A program made the translations under genes and the position numbers. A DNA stretch of 64,000 nt from Oceaniglobus indicus (GTDB taxonomy: Bacteria > Pseudomonadota > Alphaproteobacteria > Rhodobacterales > Rhodobacteraceae). Location of the stretch: positions 1-64,000 of the forward strand of contig NZ_NMZM01000004.1 in assembly GCF_002751875.1 (NCBI RefSeq). Direction: 5' to 3'. Shown here in pieces: positions 43,944-51,046 of the stretch; the first letter of the stretch is position 1; each line of letters begins with the position of its first letter. Under the pieces are notes generated by a model. The model did not search any database, was not told the origin of the DNA, and saw nothing but the letters and a program-made list of their open reading frames with translations.

Positions 43944-45494
43944 CTATATCCCGTCCCGGCGAAGATCAATGGCCGCGCGGCGGCGATGCCACCACAGTGC
44001 GCCGCACAGCGCGATCAGCAACACCGCCAGCGGCATGTCACCGCTGCGGGCATAGGGCGTCGGCGGCCCGGCCGGCGGCAGGGCGACATCCAGAAATCCG
44101 GCCTGGCCCAGCGGCAGATGTGCCACCATGCGGCCGCGATCGTCGATCAGCCCGGAAATGCCGGTATTGGCCACCCGCACCATCGCCAGACCCTGTTCGA
44201 TCGTACGCATCCGGGCCTGTGCAAGGTGCTGATAAGGCCCGGAAAAAGTGCCGAACCAGGCATCGTTGGTAATCTGGAGCAGCCAGTCGGGGCGCGGGGT
44301 GCCGCGCAGATCCTGCGGAAAGATCGCCTCGTAACAGATCAGCGGCAAGGCGTGGCCCAGCGCACCAAAATCGATCAGATGCGGCCCCGGTCCAGCCGAA
44401 AACCCGTATCCGTCCCGTGCGGCAAACGAACGCAGGCCGATCAGCCGTGCCAGACCGCCGAACGGGATGTATTCGCCGAACGGAACCAGGTGGTGCTTGT
44501 CATAGGTGTCGGTGACGATTCCGTCCTGTCCCAGCACCAGAAGGCTGTTGAACGCTTGCGGCCCCTCCATGCGCTGGGCGCCCACCGCGACCGGGCGGCC
44601 GGCGCCCTGGGCGGATATCTCGGCCAGCGCGGGATGGCCCGAGTCGGCAAGGAACGGGATGGCCGTTTCGGGCCAGACGATCAGATCGGGCCGGCCGTCT
44701 TCACCGGGCGCCCCGGTGAAATCCAACTGGCGTTCGAAAAAGAACATCGCGCGGTCGGGATCCCACTTTTCGCCTTGCGGCGCGTTCGGCTGAACCACCC
44801 GGATCAACGACGCATCTGCATCGGGTTGCGTCACGGGGGTCAGCCGCAGCGCGCCGATGCCGAGCGGCAGCAGCCACAAGGCGATCAGCCCCACCGCACC
44901 CGCCCAGTGCCGCCGTTGCGCCACCAGCACGGCCAGCGCCGCGCCCAGCAGCGTCAGCACGCCAAGCGCGAAGGATCCGGTCCAGGCGGCGATCTGCGCG
45001 CCGGCGGTTTCGCTCCAGACATATCCGATCAGCGCCCAGGGAAACCCGGTCAGCACATACGAGCGCAGCATCTCTGCCCCGCCAAGGCACACCGCAAAGG
45101 CCAGCGCGCGTGACCATCCGGGCCGCGAGATCCGGTGTGCCAGCGCGAAAGCGCCCCCCCAGAACAACGCGAACCCCGTGGCCATGAACACCAGCGCGAA
45201 AGGCGCCATCCATCCGGTCGCGGCCAGGTCGATCAGGAATGGCTCGACGATCCAGTGCAGGGTCGTGGCGAAATACCCGGTGCCGATCCACCAGCCCATG
45301 ATCGCCGCCTGTCGCACGCTCGCGGACCGCGCGAGATGCAGGAAAGCCAGCGCAAAGGCCAGCAGGGACAGCGGCAAAAGCGAGAACGGCACATGCCCCA
45401 GGCCCGCGGCGACACCCGTCAGGCAGGCGGCGATCCGCGACCGGCCGACCGCCGCGTCGATCTGTCCGAAAACCACGCCGCCCGTGTCAGCCAA
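43944..45494 (-). CDS. lnt: apolipoprotein N-acyltransferase
   Basis: 516 residues. N-terminal membrane segments are followed by a nitrilase-like periplasmic domain with the Glu-Lys-Cys triad: IVWPETAIPF, DKHHLVPFGEYIP and PLICYEAIFP. It adds the third acyl chain to lipoproteins. The start is uncertain. TTG 45494 overlaps the corC stop by 8 bp and has no clear ribosome site; GTG 45476 would give 510 residues. It follows corC in the ybeY-corC-lnt operon. Confidence 0.92.
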   Translation of the reverse strand: MADTGGVVFGQIDAAVGRSRIAACLTGVAAGLGHVPFSLLPLSLLAFALAFLHLARSASVRQAAIMGWWIGTGYFATTLHWIVEPFLIDLAATGWMAPFALVFMATGFALFWGGAFALAHRISRPGWSRALAFAVCLGGAEMLRSYVLTGFPWALIGYVWSETAGAQIAAWTGSFALGVLTLLGAALAVLVAQRRHWAGAVGLIALWLLPLGIGALRLTPVTQPDADASLIRVVQPNAPQGEKWDPDRAMFFFERQLDFTGAPGEDGRPDLIVWPETAIPFLADSGHPALAEISAQGAGRPVAVGAQRMEGPQAFNSLLVLGQDGIVTDTYDKHHLVPFGEYIPFGGLARLIGLRSFAARDGYGFSAGPGPHLIDFGALGHALPLICYEAIFPQDLRGTPRPDWLLQITNDAWFGTFSGPYQHLAQARMRTIEQGLAMVRVANTGISGLIDDRGRMVAHLPLGQAGFLDVALPPAGPPTPYARSGDMPLAVLLIALCGALWWHRRRAAIDLRRDGI

Positions 45495-46434
45495 TTGATT
45501 TCGACTGGCTCGGCGCGACGGCGCCGGGGGTCGGCGCCGGACGCTCGGCCCCGGCCATGCGCACGCGGATCCGCTTGATGCGGCGCGGGTCGGCATCGAC
45601 GATTTCGAATTGCGGGCCGGCGGGGTGGGGGATCACCTCGCCGCGGGCCGGCACGCGGCCGGTCAGCACGAAGACGACACCGCCCAGCGTGTCGATCTCT
45701 TCCTCGTCCTCGGGCTCGACCAGCTTCATGCCGATCTCGTCCTCGAATTCGTCCAGCGGCGTCTTGGCCTGTGCCAGATAAACGCCGGGTTTCTCCTCGG
45801 TCCAGTTCTTGCCCTCGGCGATGTCATGCTCGTCCTCGATCTCGCCGATGACCTGTTCGATCAGATCCTCGATGGTGACCAGGCCGTCGACCCCGCCGTA
45901 TTCGTCGATCACCAGGGCCATGTGCATCCGGTCGTTCTGCATCTTCTGAAGCAGCACGCCGATGGGCATCGACGGCGGCGCATAGATCAGCGGGCGCAGC
46001 ATCGACTTCAGATCGAACGGGGTTTCCCCCCCGTTGAACCCATGCAACAGCGCGAAGTCCTTGAGGTGGATCATGCCCACGGGATGATCCGGCGTGTCGG
46101 CATAGACGGGCAGACGGGTCATGCCGCTGTCGCGGAAAACGCGGACCAGTTCGTCTTTCTCGATGTCCTGCGAGACCGACACGATTTCGACCGTCGGGAT
46201 CGCCACGTCGTAAACGCGCATCCGTCGCAGGTTCGAAAGGCCCAGGGACTGGGGCGTCGTGCCCCGGTCATCGCCTTCGTCGGCGTCGTTCTCGGATGCG
46301 CTGTCGGCGGGGCCGAAGGCTTCGAACAGGCGACCGAAAAATCCACGACTGTTCGGTTGCTCGGTGTCGTCCATGGGGTCGGCCTGCACGTCCCGTGCGG
46401 CCAGCCTCGAACTCTCGTCTTCGTCGCCCATCAT
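45487..46434 (-). CDS. corC: CorC/HlyC-family CBS-domain protein
   Basis: 315 residues with an acidic N-terminal region, a CBS pair (about 85-200; [33 protein letters not shown]) and a C-terminal CorC_HlyC domain ([18 protein letters not shown]). It is linked to magnesium/cobalt efflux in enterics. MGDEDESS at 46434 follows GGAAAGG; ATG 46431 is equal. It is between ybeY and lnt in the conserved order. Confidence 0.9.
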
Positions 46435-46495
46435 GCCTTTCCAAAATATCGCGCCTGCAAGAGGCACTTACGTCTACCGCCCGGTGACGGTCGCG

Positions 46496-46981
46496 TCATC
46501 CCCTATATGGGTCGGCGATCCCCAGGGTGGCCAGGATTTCCGTTTCCAGCCGTTCCATCAGATCGCCGTCCGCGTCGTCTTCATGGTCGAACCCCAGAAG
46601 ATGCAGGGTGCCATGGATCAGAAGATGGGTGACATGGTCGGCGAACGCAACACCGCCGGCCCGTGCTTCTGCAACACAGGTGTCGAATGCGATGGCCAGA
46701 TCGCCCAGTTCGGGATCCTGCGGATCGGGCAGGGCAGGCATCGCGCCGGGTGCAGCGGCGCCGCGTTCATCCGATGGCCATGACAACACGTTGGTGGCAA
46801 TCGCCTTGCCGCGGAAAGTGGCGTTCAGCGCCGCGATGCGCGTATCGTCGCAGGCCAGCAGCGACACCTCCCACGATCCGGGCGCCAGGCGCGCCAGCGC
46901 CGCGGCGACCGCGCGTTCGGCCAGATCGGCGATGCCGACGTCGTGCCAGCGTTCATCCTCGATCATCGTTTCGACTGTCAC
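46496..46981 (-). CDS. ybeY: endoribonuclease YbeY
   Basis: 161 residues ending with the zinc site HLLIHGTLHLLGFDHEDD (H-x3-H-x5-H). It is a 16S rRNA maturation and quality-control RNase. I chose GTG 46981 (MTVETMIEDERW) because GGGGGA lies just upstream; ATG 46966 is an alternative. It is normally directly after phoH, but here an oppositely oriented channel gene lies between. Confidence 0.93.
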   Translation of the reverse strand: MTVETMIEDERWHDVGIADLAERAVAAALARLAPGSWEVSLLACDDTRIAALNATFRGKAIATNVLSWPSDERGAAAPGAMPALPDPQDPELGDLAIAFDTCVAEARAGGVAFADHVTHLLIHGTLHLLGFDHEDDADGDLMERLETEILATLGIADPYRG

Positions 46982-47071
46982 GGTATCCCCCGGCGCGGTT
47001 TCGTGTTTGATTTCGTGCGCCCATGCCACAAGTTCAAGCCGTAAACACGCCCGAACCGCCGGAGATCTCAT

Positions 47072-48166
47072 TTGCCTTCTGTCGCACGTATCCTGTCCTG
47101 CCTTGCCTTCTTCATCGCGCTGTCGCTGGCGCCCGTCCTTTCGGCCAGCGCCCAATCCGCGCCGGACCCCGCGCAGGGGGGCGAACCGGAACGGCTGCGC
47201 GTCGGGGTCGAACATCTGCCGCCCTTCGCGGTCAACATGGGCGATGGCGCCAGCCTGGGGTTGGCGATGGACATCTGGCGGTTGGCGGCGGAACGGCTGG
47301 ATCTCGACTGGACCACCGTCCCGCTTGAGCCGGGAACCGCGACCGATGCGCTGTTGGCGGACCGGATCGACGTGGCGCTGCCGATCAACGCGACACCGGA
47401 ACGGGCCCAGGCGGTCGACCTGACCCAGCCGATCTATACGGCGACCATGGGCATCGCGACGACTCGCGATCCGCTGCTGAGCAACCTTCTGTTCGCCTTC
47501 CTGTCGCTGGAGTTCCTGGCCGTCGTCCTGTGGCTGTCGGCACTTCTGTTCGCGGTCGGCGCGCTGGTCTGGCTGTTCGAGCGCAAGAAGAATCATGAAC
47601 AGTTCGGCGGCGGTCGCACGCTGGACGGGCTGGGCGACGGGTTCTGGTGGGCCGGCGTCACGCTGACCACCATCGGTTACGGCGACAAGGCGCCGATCAC
47701 CCTGCCGGGGCGCGCGGTGGCGATGTTGTGGATGCTGGTCGGTCTTGCGGTCAGTTCGGCCCTCACGGCCAGCATCGTCACCCTGACCGACGCCAACCGC
47801 GGCGCCCATCTGCCCGAGGATTTCGTCGGGCGCAGCGTCGCGGTGGTCGAGGACAGCACCGCCGAACTCTACCTTGCCGACAAGCGGGCCGAACTGCATC
47901 CCTATGTCACGATCGAAGAGGCGCTGCAGGCGCTGGACGCCGGCATCGTCGAGCGGGTCGCCTTCAACGCGCCGGCCCTGCGTGCCGCGATCGATCGGCT
48001 GGATTACACCGATCTGCATGTGGTGACGACGCGTTACGATCCGCACTATGTCACAATGGCGCTGCCCGCGGACTCCGGGTTGCGCGCGCCGCTTGACGCA
48101 ACTGTGCTGGCGATCCTGTCCAGCGAAACGGGCTGGACGCTGATCGACCGCTACCTGCCTGAATGA
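47072..48166 (+). CDS. GluR0-like ligand-gated potassium channel (binding lobes split by a K+ pore)
   Basis: 364 residues. The signal peptide (1-28) is followed by half of a family-3 solute-binding fold (about 42-130; LRVGVEHLPPFAV, DRIDVALPI). A membrane helix spans about 138-169, and a pore loop carries the potassium filter TTIGYGD (199-205). A second helix (about 213-236) leads to the second binding half (FVGRSVAVVEDSTAELYL onward). This is the prokaryotic ionotropic glutamate-receptor layout. TTG 47072 is the start, with GGAGAT upstream. It lies alone on the plus strand between ybeY and phoH. The ligand is unknown, probably an amino acid. Confidence 0.87.
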   Translation: MPSVARILSCLAFFIALSLAPVLSASAQSAPDPAQGGEPERLRVGVEHLPPFAVNMGDGASLGLAMDIWRLAAERLDLDWTTVPLEPGTATDALLADRIDVALPINATPERAQAVDLTQPIYTATMGIATTRDPLLSNLLFAFLSLEFLAVVLWLSALLFAVGALVWLFERKKNHEQFGGGRTLDGLGDGFWWAGVTLTTIGYGDKAPITLPGRAVAMLWMLVGLAVSSALTASIVTLTDANRGAHLPEDFVGRSVAVVEDSTAELYLADKRAELHPYVTIEEALQALDAGIVERVAFNAPALRAAIDRLDYTDLHVVTTRYDPHYVTMALPADSGLRAPLDATVLAILSSETGWTLIDRYLPE

Positions 48167-48173
48167 GACGCGC

Positions 48174-49181
48174 TCAGCCGTCGGCCTCGTAGGCCTCGAT
48201 GATCCGCGCCACAAGCGGGTGGCGCACGACGTCCTTGGCGGTGAAGTAGTTGAACGAGATCCGGGGAATGCCGTTCAGCAACCGTTCGGCGTCCTGCAAC
48301 CCGCTGCCGACGCCGCGCGGCAGGTCGACCTGGGTCCGGTCGCCGGTGACGACCATGCGCGATCCCTGGCCCAGCCGGGTCAGGAACATCTTCATCTGCA
48401 TGGTCGTGGCGTTCTGCGCCTCGTCCAGCACGACGAAGGCGTTGGACAACGTGCGCCCGCGCATGAAGGCCAGCGGCGCGATCTCGATCCGCTTCTCCTC
48501 GATCAGCTTGGCCGCCTGTTTTCCGGGCAGGAAATCGTTCAGCGCGTCATAGAGCGGCTGCATGTAGGGATCGACCTTGTCCTTCATGTCGCCCGGCAGA
48601 TAGCCTAGCTTTTCACCCGCCTCGACGGCGGGGCGCGACAGGATGATCTTGTCGACGTGGCCTTCGATGAACATGTTCACGCCCACGGCGACGGCCAGAT
48701 AGGTCTTGCCGGTGCCCGCCGGGCCGATGCCGAAGCACAGCTCGTTGTCGAACAGGCTGCGGACATATGCTTTCTGCGCCTCGGTGCGCGGTTCGACCAG
48801 CTTCTTGCGCGTCTTGATCTCGATCAGGCCGCTCTTGAACATCTCGATCTGGTCGCCATCGCGCACGCCCTTCTGCTGGCGCGACGGTCCCATGCGCAGT
48901 TCGGCCTCGATGTCGCCGGGTTCGATGGTTTTGCCCGCTTCGAGGCGGGTATAGAGGGCGCGCAATACCTCGGCGGCGCGCGCCTGCGCATCGGCGTCGC
49001 CGACCAGCGCCAGGTCATTGCCCCGGCGCATGATCTGAACGTCGAGCGCGTGTTCGATCGCCGCGATGTTGCGGTCGAATTCGCCGCAAAGTTCGATCAG
49101 CAGTCGGTTGTCTTGAAATTCGACATGCTGCTCGGACGGCATGCCGGTTTTTTGCGGGGGGGTCGGCGGGATAAGGCCCAA
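48174..49181 (-). CDS. phoH: PhoH-family ATPase
   Basis: 335 residues: N-terminal KH-like region, then Walker A GIGPAGTGKTYLA, AVEAGEKLGYLPGDMKDKVDPYMQP (the PhoH signature, near 175-200) and Walker B AFVVLDEAQN. It is an RNA-related ATPase. I prefer TTG 49181, with GGAG six bases upstream; ATG 49142 (MPSEQHVEF) would give 322 residues. Its 3' end is 7 bp from the convergent channel gene. Confidence 0.9.
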   Translation of the reverse strand: MGLIPPTPPQKTGMPSEQHVEFQDNRLLIELCGEFDRNIAAIEHALDVQIMRRGNDLALVGDADAQARAAEVLRALYTRLEAGKTIEPGDIEAELRMGPSRQQKGVRDGDQIEMFKSGLIEIKTRKKLVEPRTEAQKAYVRSLFDNELCFGIGPAGTGKTYLAVAVGVNMFIEGHVDKIILSRPAVEAGEKLGYLPGDMKDKVDPYMQPLYDALNDFLPGKQAAKLIEEKRIEIAPLAFMRGRTLSNAFVVLDEAQNATTMQMKMFLTRLGQGSRMVVTGDRTQVDLPRGVGSGLQDAERLLNGIPRISFNYFTAKDVVRHPLVARIIEAYEADG

Positions 49182-49319
49182 CACTTGCTCCAGACGATTT
49201 GTGTTGTTCGTATGGTGGTCATCCGTTGCGCCGGGTGCAAGCCCTGCACGCCAAACCGCGCGAATTATCCCTGAATTTGCCGGTTTTACGCCTTGCGCGG
49301 ACACAAGCCCCCAACGCAA

Positions 49320-49370: not shown

Positions 49371-49667
49371 TCAGATGGGGTCGACCACGGTCGAGCCGGC
49401 GCGATCCGGCCCGTTGATCGTGAACGGCGGCAGCAGGCCGCAGATCGGCTTGCCCGTGCGGTCGAGACGGTTGTCCTGATAACCTTCGATGCCGTCGTCG
49501 ATGGCCCAGTGTTCGCACCCGTCCCCATCGACCCAGATGCCCGGTGTCCGGGTCAGGTTCGAGAGGCTCTTGGTGTCAAAGCCGCGGTCGACGGTCTGGT
49601 CGATTTTCTGGCCGCACCCGGCCACCGCCAGAGCGCCTGAAATCAGAACGAAAGAAATGAATCTCAT
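49371..49667 (-). CDS. small lipoprotein with the C-E-H-W motif
   Basis: 98 residues. The signal peptide ends in the lipobox AVAGC (Cys18), so it is a lipid-anchored envelope protein. The mature half (about 43-78) reads IWVDGDGCEHWAIDDG, then EGYQDNRLDRTGKPICG. The same pattern occurs at the N-terminus of the OmpA-like protein encoded 5 bp upstream, so the two share a small domain with two conserved Cys. I do not recognise the domain. It is probably co-transcribed with that gene. Confidence 0.82.
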   Translation of the reverse strand: MRFISFVLISGALAVAGCGQKIDQTVDRGFDTKSLSNLTRTPGIWVDGDGCEHWAIDDGIEGYQDNRLDRTGKPICGLLPPFTINGPDRAGSTVVDPI

Positions 49668-49671
49668 GGCG

Positions 49672-50223
49672 TTACCTTACACAAATGATTTCGACGCGAC
49701 GGTTGGCCTGCATGCCCGCCGCCGTCTGGTTCGATGCGCGGGGCTGGCGTTCGCCCATGCCGCGCACGTCCATGATCGGCGCCCCGACACCGGCCGCCAG
49801 CGATGCGACGGAATTGGCGCGGTTGTAGGACAGGCGCAGGTTGTATTCATCCGATGCGCGGCTGTCGGTGTGGCCGATGATCGTATAGGCCCGCGCGCCC
49901 GCCGAGCGGAAGAAGCTGGTCAGGCGCTGTTTGCCGGCGTGATTGATGTGATAGCTGTCGGTCGCGAACAACTGGTCGGAATTCATCACGGCGCAGGTTT
50001 CGACCTTGTGGCAGACCGGCTTGCCCTGGCGGGTCAGTCGCGCGCTCATGTAGCCTTCCCAGCCGTCGTCGCGCACCCAGTGTTCACACCCGTCGGGGTC
50101 GATCCAGATGGTGCCGATCGCGCGGCGCTGCTGCGCTTCGGCGGGGGCGGCCATCCCCAGCGTGGTGGCGGCGATCATGGCGGCCCCGAAGGCGGCGCGT
50201 GCGAAATTGATGTGTCTCGACAC
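49672..50223 (-). CDS. OmpA-family outer-membrane/peptidoglycan-binding protein
   Basis: 183 residues. After the signal peptide (MSRHINFARAAFGAAMIAAT to AEAQ) comes IWIDPDGCEHWVRDDG and EGYMSARLTRQGKPVCH, the motif shared with the next gene. A C-terminal OmpA domain follows (YTIIGHTDSRASDEYNLRLS, RGMGERQP, NRRVEIICV). I read GTG 50223 as the start, with GGGAGAAC upstream; longer reading has no support. It likely anchors the outer membrane to peptidoglycan. Confidence 0.87.
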   Translation of the reverse strand: MSRHINFARAAFGAAMIAATTLGMAAPAEAQQRRAIGTIWIDPDGCEHWVRDDGWEGYMSARLTRQGKPVCHKVETCAVMNSDQLFATDSYHINHAGKQRLTSFFRSAGARAYTIIGHTDSRASDEYNLRLSYNRANSVASLAAGVGAPIMDVRGMGERQPRASNQTAAGMQANRRVEIICVR

Positions 50224-50652
50224 ACTGTTCTCCCTTGAAAATCGGAGCACCGGGCCAGTATGGCAGCCGCCCGCGCATCCCCCGTTTTTTGTATGCTCTT
50301 GAACAATACTGCAATTCGGCATGTTGGAAAGCCTGATTCTGCGTTCTTCCCCGCCAGATCGCCCCGTTTGCGCGGGTCGATCGCCTTGCCGGAATCGGAA
50401 CACCCTGCTTGCTGGCCAATCCTGTTGGAATGCGCAGCTTTGATGCCCAGGCGTGAACAAAGCGCCTGTCTTGAGCCCAATTTCTTGCCAAAAGCTTAAT
50501 TCTGCCCGATGGTTTATGGCAGAAACATGTCGATCCCGTGCCCAAATTATCGAACCGTGGGCCGGACAAGACAGCATGGCACCCGCCGATCGGGCGCAGG
50601 AACATCGGTTGCCGCCGGCAACCCTCGAATGGAACACCGAAGGGAAAACGAC

Positions 50653-51000
50653 ATGAAAACAGGAATGCTGTGTGCAGGGCTTCTGGTTGCGGCGGCCACC
50701 CAGGCGGGGGCGTCGAACTATCACGGGCACCATCATGGAAACCATGCGCATAACACGCTGAACGGTTATGCGTGGAACGGTCAGACGATCATCGTCAGCT
50801 GCTATCGCGGGCCCTGGCGCGAGGTGATCTGGGATCGCCCCAACGGCAAGTTCATCGACAGCCTGGTGGCCGTCGGATATTCGCAGCCCGCCGCACAGGC
50901 CATCGGCGAGCGGGTCTGCCGCGACCAGAACCTGGTCGGCAACCTTCAGAACATGCTGGCCGAGGTCAAGCGCATCATCCGCAACGCGCCCAAGAACTGA
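50653..51000 (+). CDS. small exported His-rich protein, unknown function
   Basis: 115 residues. The signal peptide MKTGMLCAGLLVAAATQAGA is followed by a His-rich stretch, NYHGHHHGNHAHN (residues about 22-34). The rest is a compact region with two Cys (VSCYRGPW and ERVCRDQ), possibly a disulfide. I do not recognise a family. The His cluster suggests metal binding (inference). It is divergent from the OmpA-like gene with a 429-bp gap that holds nothing clear, and convergent with miaB. Confidence 0.75.
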   Translation: MKTGMLCAGLLVAAATQAGASNYHGHHHGNHAHNTLNGYAWNGQTIIVSCYRGPWREVIWDRPNGKFIDSLVAVGYSQPAAQAIGERVCRDQNLVGNLQNMLAEVKRIIRNAPKN

Positions 51001-51046
51001 ACCGTGTGCCACCGCCATGCCCCGCTTCGGGGCGTGGCGCCATCGC

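Follow-up and report, generated by a model that had tools for sequence, protein, structure and literature searches.

Between phoH and ybeY, the window (the whole stretch of 64,000 nucleotides of Oceaniglobus indicus DNA that was analysed) carries an inverted gene for a glutamate-receptor-like channel with a K+ selectivity filter. The features of the locus, with residue numbers of the encoded protein, are as follows:

45487 to 46467, minus strand: corC-like gene, downstream of ybeY (PF03471, PF00571)
46496 to 46975, minus strand: ybeY (PF02130, 8.4e-29)
46976 to 47071, no strand: divergent region between ybeY and the channel gene, 96 bp, no sigma-70-like site by scan
47061 to 47064, plus strand: Shine-Dalgarno-like GGAG in the sequence, 7 nt ahead of the TTG start
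47072 to 48166, plus strand: K+-filter glutamate-receptor-like channel gene, 364 codons, TTG start, TGA stop
47072 to 47155, plus strand: N-terminal hydrophobic segment, probable signal peptide (residues 1-28, end presumed)
47189 to 47470, plus strand: S1 lobe (residues 40-133; SBP_bac_3 and model; aligns to the GluR0 ligand-binding domain, 1ii5/1iit)
47402 to 47404, plus strand: Arg111 codon, aligned with the carboxylate-binding Arg of GluR0
47507 to 47581, plus strand: first transmembrane helix (residues 146-170; model)
47618 to 47665, plus strand: pore helix (residues 183-198; model)
47666 to 47686, plus strand: K+ selectivity filter TTIGYGD (residues 199-205; invariant in 30/30 clade members)
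47702 to 47800, plus strand: second transmembrane (gate) helix (residues 211-243; model)
47813 to 48163, plus strand: S2 lobe (residues 248-364; Pfam and model)
47966 to 47968, plus strand: Asn299 codon, aligned with the amine-binding Asp of GluR0
48174 to 49319, minus strand: phoH (PF02562, 1.2e-91; start codon uncertain)

The channel reading frame is without an internal stop and encodes 364 amino acids. Its best SBP_bac_3 stretch in Pfam covers residues 42-309 (1e-13), and the Ion_trans_2 match (residues 184-237, 2.2e-14) sits inside that span; a Lig_chan match stayed under its cut-off (25.7 versus 30.8 bits). Pfam and the translation thus bear out the original prediction of a solute-binding domain split into two lobes with TTIGYGD between them. 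The gene is not a chance reading frame, since a single pattern scan of 84,980 species genomes returned 34 related loci and the filter is invariant in all 30 clade members. Orthologues are up to 54% identical. A second gene of this kind was not found in the same genome, where the two other matches at E<=10 were weak and partial (E 3.9e-4 and 0.014). The hydrophobic N-terminus, modelled as a helix at residues 5-17 at low pLDDT and hence with low confidence, is probably a signal peptide; two Group 1 members of Ger et al. 2010 are reported to have none (PMC2950845).

An AlphaFold model of the channel, computed from a 35-sequence alignment, reached a mean pLDDT of 88 and a pTM of 0.75. It places the pore helix between the two transmembrane helices and the filter directly after it, so that the proposed channel does not fail for lack of a re-entrant pore. 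In a Foldseek search against the PDB, all of the best 50 matches listed were chains of AMPA- or NMDA-type receptors; the alignments span 364-409 columns, with E values of 1.4e-17 to 2.9e-16 and TM scores to the query of 0.43-0.59. The rmsd of these matches was 6-11 Å, which suggests that the modelled domains match those of the animal receptors while their relative arrangement is not closely alike. Lys and Arg abound in the loop leading from the first helix to the pore helix, as would be the case for a cytoplasmic loop, from which we infer that the lobes lie in the periplasm. PhoA fusions of GluR0 back the same topology, with several values not statistically significant (PMC13099474).

To place the channel among its relatives, loci from the scan and from genome searches were sorted into a core clade (30 rows including the window), four loci of the L042 type and other prokaryotic channels. 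Seven near-duplicates (L004, L046-L051), which show the same states as the loci they duplicate, were dropped before counting; L009 was left out of the alignment and of a wider 59-row tree, remaining in the column statistics, and the tree of the core with controls does not include L055. In the latter tree, built with seven K+-filter controls, the core forms one side of a branch with 100/100 support. In the 59-row tree, a branch with an SH-aLRT of 100 separates the core plus the L042 type (34 rows) from the other 25. Most core members (24/30) are Paracoccaceae or Roseobacteraceae (Limimaricola, Jannaschia, Wenxinia, Palleronia and others); the remaining rows are three Parvularcula, one Salinarimonas, one alphaproteobacterial MAG and the window genome.

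Such channels had been described as rare, which roughly holds for the core type: judged on the best 30 loci, which were the only ones taken, it is present in 8/394 genomes of the family sample, including that of the window. However, any match at E<=1e-20 occurs in 78/394. Matches were also found in 5/385 genomes of the class sample and 20/398 of the phylum sample, counts that include the window genome and some genomes already counted, and none of the 23 further loci read from these two samples was of the core type. Five genomes of the same genus, one of them only 75% complete, gave no channel match at E<=1e-10.

Conservation within the core is concentrated in the pore. Invariant columns make up 21 of 26 positions in the pore (183-208), compared to 2/94 in S1 and 1/117 in S2, and the mean column entropy is 0.24 for pore helix and filter, 1.69 for S1 and 1.86 for S2. 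The filter TTIGYGD was retained by every one of the 30 clade members, so that the proposed channel does not fail on unconserved filter residues either. Pore conservation is lower in the mixed controls (mean entropy 1.42), 18 of which have no GYG filter. Judged by these columns, the K+ pore is under strong constraint and the amino-acid site is not, a pattern that does not look like a decaying gene.

In GluR0, the alpha-carboxylate of the amino acid is held by an Arg in S1 and its alpha-amine by an Asp in S2; we take these to be the Arg and the Asp in the aligned motifs of the ligand-binding domain (LBD). Pairwise alignment to the LBDs of GluR0 (1ii5, 1iit) and of the bacterial homologue 2pyy pairs Arg111 with the S1 Arg and Asn299 with the S2 Asp, with a common x-P following. 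Aligned alone, the S2 stretch scored weakly against GluR0 (i-E 5.9) and better against 2pyy (0.0012), with the same residues paired. A common proline two positions further along (Pro301, in 27/30 core and 26/26 control rows) and the lack of an adjoining gap speak for the register at 299. Both anchors were reported as totally conserved in the 22 prokaryotic channels of Ger et al. (PMC2950845).

Column statistics compared the 30 clade rows with 26 controls, 18 of them without a GYG filter. Asp at position 299 is found in 0/30 core rows versus 26/26 controls; the core has Ala (17) or Pro (5) there, and otherwise Asn, Gly, Ser, Thr or Glu. Arg at position 111 is kept in 4/30 (the window, L015, L021 and L040) versus 25/26 controls and is replaced most often by Leu (13) or Ala (6); in Limimaricola, both anchor positions carry Ala. 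Tyr at position 327 is likewise absent from all 30 core rows and present in 25/26 controls. Position 106, five residues ahead of the Arg, is the most variable of the 209 LBD columns in the core and ranks 39 in the controls. Positions 106 and 327 are presumed to contact the ligand because they map to 480 and 732 of animal receptors (numbered as in PMC12226733); the assignment does not come from a structure of the channel itself. On the tree of the core with seven controls, the Asp requires one change and the Arg five.

Among the columns that vary little or not at all in the controls, 51, 63, 116, 120, 301 and 346 show the control residue in 27-30 core rows (29 or 30 have a letter there), and 117, 125 and 250 are changed in the core. 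Conversely, Arg70, Glu74, Thr320 and Pro324 are fixed or nearly fixed in the core and vary in the controls; Thr123-Ala124-Thr125 and Asp323-Pro324 are specific to the clade and largely conserved in it. Of the 30, the window protein shows the least erosion: it keeps Arg111, Thr108 and Ser262-Thr263 and has a polar rather than hydrophobic residue, Asn, at position 299. Since Arg111 is kept and position 299 is Asn, weak binding of a carboxylate or even of an amino acid is possible for this member. By alignment and tree, the channel belongs to a well-supported clade in which the K+ filter never varies and amino-acid-holding residues are lost. The likeness to GluR0 put forward in the original prediction therefore holds for the layout and for the K+ filter, seen in Pfam, in the model and in 30/30 members, but a GluR0 with an unknown ligand understates the difference, given the Asn at the S2 Asp position and the loss of this Asp throughout the clade.

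The control set was extended by 23 loci from the class and phylum searches, ten of which have a GYGD filter; these ten keep the Arg in all cases and the Asp in nine. Taken together, the 18 K+-filter channels outside the core and the L042 type (8 + 10) keep the Arg in 17 and the Asp in 17. L055, a K+-filter channel outside the clade, lacks the Arg, and L115 lacks the Asp. Another such K+-filter channel, L113 (genome G935), keeps the Arg and has Tyr at the S2 Asp position, as in placozoan AKDF1. We also considered whether the loss of anchors is unique to the core clade, which had to be rejected: the four L042-type loci (L042-L045; Aurantimonas and Erythrobacteraceae), with the filter TTIGYGDLVP and a somewhat shorter S2 lobe, lack both anchors too. 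These loci, which are outside the counts of 30 and 18, fall inside the core on a long branch of the 59-row tree and may represent either another group of eroded K+ channels or a rapidly evolving part of the clade itself. Both anchors are also absent from L100, which has no GYG filter. Four glutamate-receptor-like matches lie in tandem in another genome (L101-L104; G530, contig C64, 3957-9694); the two distinct sequences read have neither anchor and, instead of a GYG filter, unusual filter regions (NEAGDVS, SANIDEG).

With respect to its location, the channel gene is inverted between phoH and ybeY, as first noted, with a gap of 7 bp to phoH; the gap to ybeY is 96 bp, counted from the ybeY start at 46975, and not the 90 bp first given. 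Scanning of this region (46976-47071) gave no sigma-70 match, and comparison with L015 revealed no clear conservation beyond the ybeY start. The two flanking genes are indeed usually adjacent: in 23/27 genomes they lie close together, with match ends 13-207 bp apart by subtraction, and in four a gene lies between them, the channel in the window and in G339 and other genes in G005 and G011. In G005, from the same genus, an inverted TetR-family gene separates phoH from an unusually divergent ybeY (L093, 763-1401 and 1489-1989). Identity to the window is 53-55% for this ybeY, 94% for the aligned part of phoH and 81% for that of corC; a divergent ybeY next to close phoH and corC suggests a replacement at the junction. 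G011 carries an ORF6N-domain gene at this position (684-1499 of L079). The ORF6N domain is common in phage antirepressor-like proteins.

The proposed break in a conserved operon thus applies to the window, but the channel occupies this site in only two of the 30 clade members, the other being Pseudoroseicyclus aestuarii (L015, the only one of the 29 other clade loci with phoH and ybeY in the flanking DNA covered; the flanks of L026, L027 and L031 are short). As G005 and G011 have other genes between phoH and ybeY, little about channel function can be read from the location. From these comparisons, the phoH-ybeY site appears to take in single genes now and then and gives no clear hint to what the channel does. 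We also considered whether phoH, channel and ybeY had recently moved as one segment between the window genome and P. aestuarii; this is not supported, because the window phoH is 71% identical to that of P. aestuarii and 80-94% identical (part aligned) to those of the five same-genus genomes. Sisterhood of the window and L015 channels is neither shown nor rejected (AU p 0.44). As a crude measure of foreign composition, codon usage of the channel differs from that of its neighbours by 0.11, with 0.067-0.090 for five of six neighbouring genes and 0.139 for the short ybeY.

A functional partner common to the clade was not found by Pfam on the neighbours of at most 20 of the 34 loci, covering one or two genes each. 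A mipA-like gene is near the channel in six loci (Pfam-checked in L017 and L031); in L017, L023, L024, L031 and L037 this outer-membrane gene lies just upstream on the same strand, and the two genes possibly form an operon in part of the clade. Near the channel are further pyrG in nine loci (Pfam-checked in L023), an rlmN-like gene upstream in L022 and L025, and a TRAP DctM gene in L012. In two Wenxinia species (L018, L021), the channel adjoins glutamine-synthetase-like genes, and in L018 two ABC permease genes precede it as well; these neighbours may point to nitrogen or polyamine metabolism. Elsewhere in the window, two adjoining minus-strand reading frames (49371-49667 and 49672-51018) have the common motif GCEHW..DDG.EGY...RL.R.GKP.C; the second continues into an OmpA-like C-terminus, as judged by eye.

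How might such a channel work? Having lost the canonical amino-acid anchors, the clade is probably not gated by glutamate in the manner of GluR0. Our favoured reading, tentative and somewhat short of an even chance, is a tonic or ligand-blocked K+ leak. The gene product would assemble, presumably as a tetramer, into a K+ channel with the inverted topology of glutamate receptors, its two-helix pore (with a canonical K+ filter) interrupting a periplasmic clamshell. As the amine anchor is missing and most members have another residue, mostly Leu or Ala, in place of the carboxylate anchor, the clamshell would rest in an active state or reach it easily. The resulting tonic K+ leak might set K+ content, turgor or membrane potential, and any ligand still bound would block or modulate the channel instead of opening it. 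This leak is favoured by analogy with placozoan AKDF1, which is reported to lack the equivalent Asp (D705) and to carry constitutive leak currents that ligands block, glycine most strongly (PMC12226733, citing Seljeset et al. 2024). Against it speak that the window protein has eroded less than any other of the 30, that the changes are not limited to the supposed ligand contacts (columns 117, 125 and 250), and that the precedent is an animal receptor with Tyr at the Asp site. Moreover, GluR0, for which the K+-uptake-deficient strain LB2003 was used, complements K+ uptake in E. coli with its Asp retained, so that such a phenotype needs no loss of the Asp, and its soluble domains are needed for function there (PMC13099474). 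The residues fixed in the clade (Arg70, Glu74, Thr320, Pro324) could also reflect a new regulatory input instead of a leak. More doubtful still is the broader form of the idea, in which the whole clade dropped the amino-acid site, froze the pore and works as a tonic, ligand-blocked K+ leak, a bacterial receptor-turned-leak-channel parallel to AKDF1 and insect ionotropic receptors (IRs).

The main rival to a leak is a K+ channel that is still ligand-gated, the clade having switched to other, maybe species-specific ligands as a bacterial counterpart of insect IRs; we regard this as a serious possibility, if a doubtful one. The chemically diverse residues at position 106, where variability peaks, would fit such a switch, as would the largely conserved clade-specific Thr123-Ala124-Thr125 and Asp323-Pro324 and the Wenxinia neighbourhoods with their glutamine-synthetase-like and, in one case, ABC permease genes. 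However, high variability equally fits relaxed constraint, no conserved neighbour among those scanned points to one ligand across the clade, and columns 106, 111 and 299 show no new consensus beyond Ala299 in 17/30 and Leu111 in 13/30. The data part the two readings poorly, as the pocket has no clear new consensus and 30 sequences are too few for a selection test. Gating by amino acids with lowered or altered affinity, for which Asn299 and Arg111 would suffice, draws on the residues that the window protein keeps (Arg111, Thr108, Ser262-Thr263); it appears unlikely in view of the clade as a whole, with no Asp against 26/26 in the controls, the Arg missing from 26/30, Tyr327 lost in 30/30, and both anchors totally conserved in the 22 channels of Ger et al. 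(PMC2950845). Least probable, and by our estimate improbable altogether, is a clamshell serving for assembly or mechanics only, in a channel that would sense membrane tension, K+ or pH like an upside-down KcsA. For it speaks that the pore is far more conserved than the lobes and that a link between GluR0 and cell volume following a KCl upshock has been reported, with a response to membrane tension suggested by the authors (PMC13099474); specific residues in both lobes nevertheless stay conserved in the clade.

Among the titles and abstract openings listed from the openly licensed PMC literature, we found no prokaryotic K+-filter glutamate receptors without the Arg and the Asp; such reports may exist elsewhere. 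GluR0-type K+ channels are already known; new here is a well-supported clade with an invariant K+ filter and lost amino-acid anchors. With some 30 small natural channels, each encoded by a single short gene, it lends itself to asking how a clamshell without ligand anchors controls a K+ gate.

Among known systems, GluR0 is the best-studied prokaryotic glutamate receptor; this K+ channel is gated by amino acids and is considered to be related to the ancestor of the animal receptors. GluR0 (Slr1257, Synechocystis) and Group 1 of Ger et al. share with the window channel the order S1-M1-P-M2-S2, the K+ filter, the absence of M4 and an LBD alignable to 1ii5/1iit. Among the features of Group 1 (Ger et al. 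2010), the window protein has the K+ filter and the S1 Arg, which only 4/30 clade members retain, and it lacks the S2 Asp. It thus differs from GluR0 and Group 1 by the Asn at the amine-binding position, and the clade differs by the missing Asp, the absence of the Arg in 26/30 and of Tyr327 in 30/30. Channels like those of Group 2 of Ger et al. (e.g., L007, L011 and L058) have the same architecture by alignment and come from the same bacterial family; in contrast to the window channel, they lack the GYG filter, with GGFEER in the filter region of 15/18, and keep both the S2 Asp and the S1 Arg in 18/18.

Animal receptors provide the other comparison. Insect IRs are olfactory and taste receptors of animals and are not known to be K+-filter channels. 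Like the clade, they are relatives of glutamate receptors, with divergent LBDs reported to lack some or all of the glutamate-interacting residues (PMC2924276). Placozoan AKDF1 likewise combines a glutamate-receptor fold with loss of the amine-binding Asp; unlike the clade, it is an animal receptor, has Tyr in place of the Asp and is described, in the part of the report drawn on here, with no mention of a K+ filter (PMC12226733). If the clade does pair an unchanging pore with a lost amino-acid site, sensor and pore modules would have parted ways in bacteria too.
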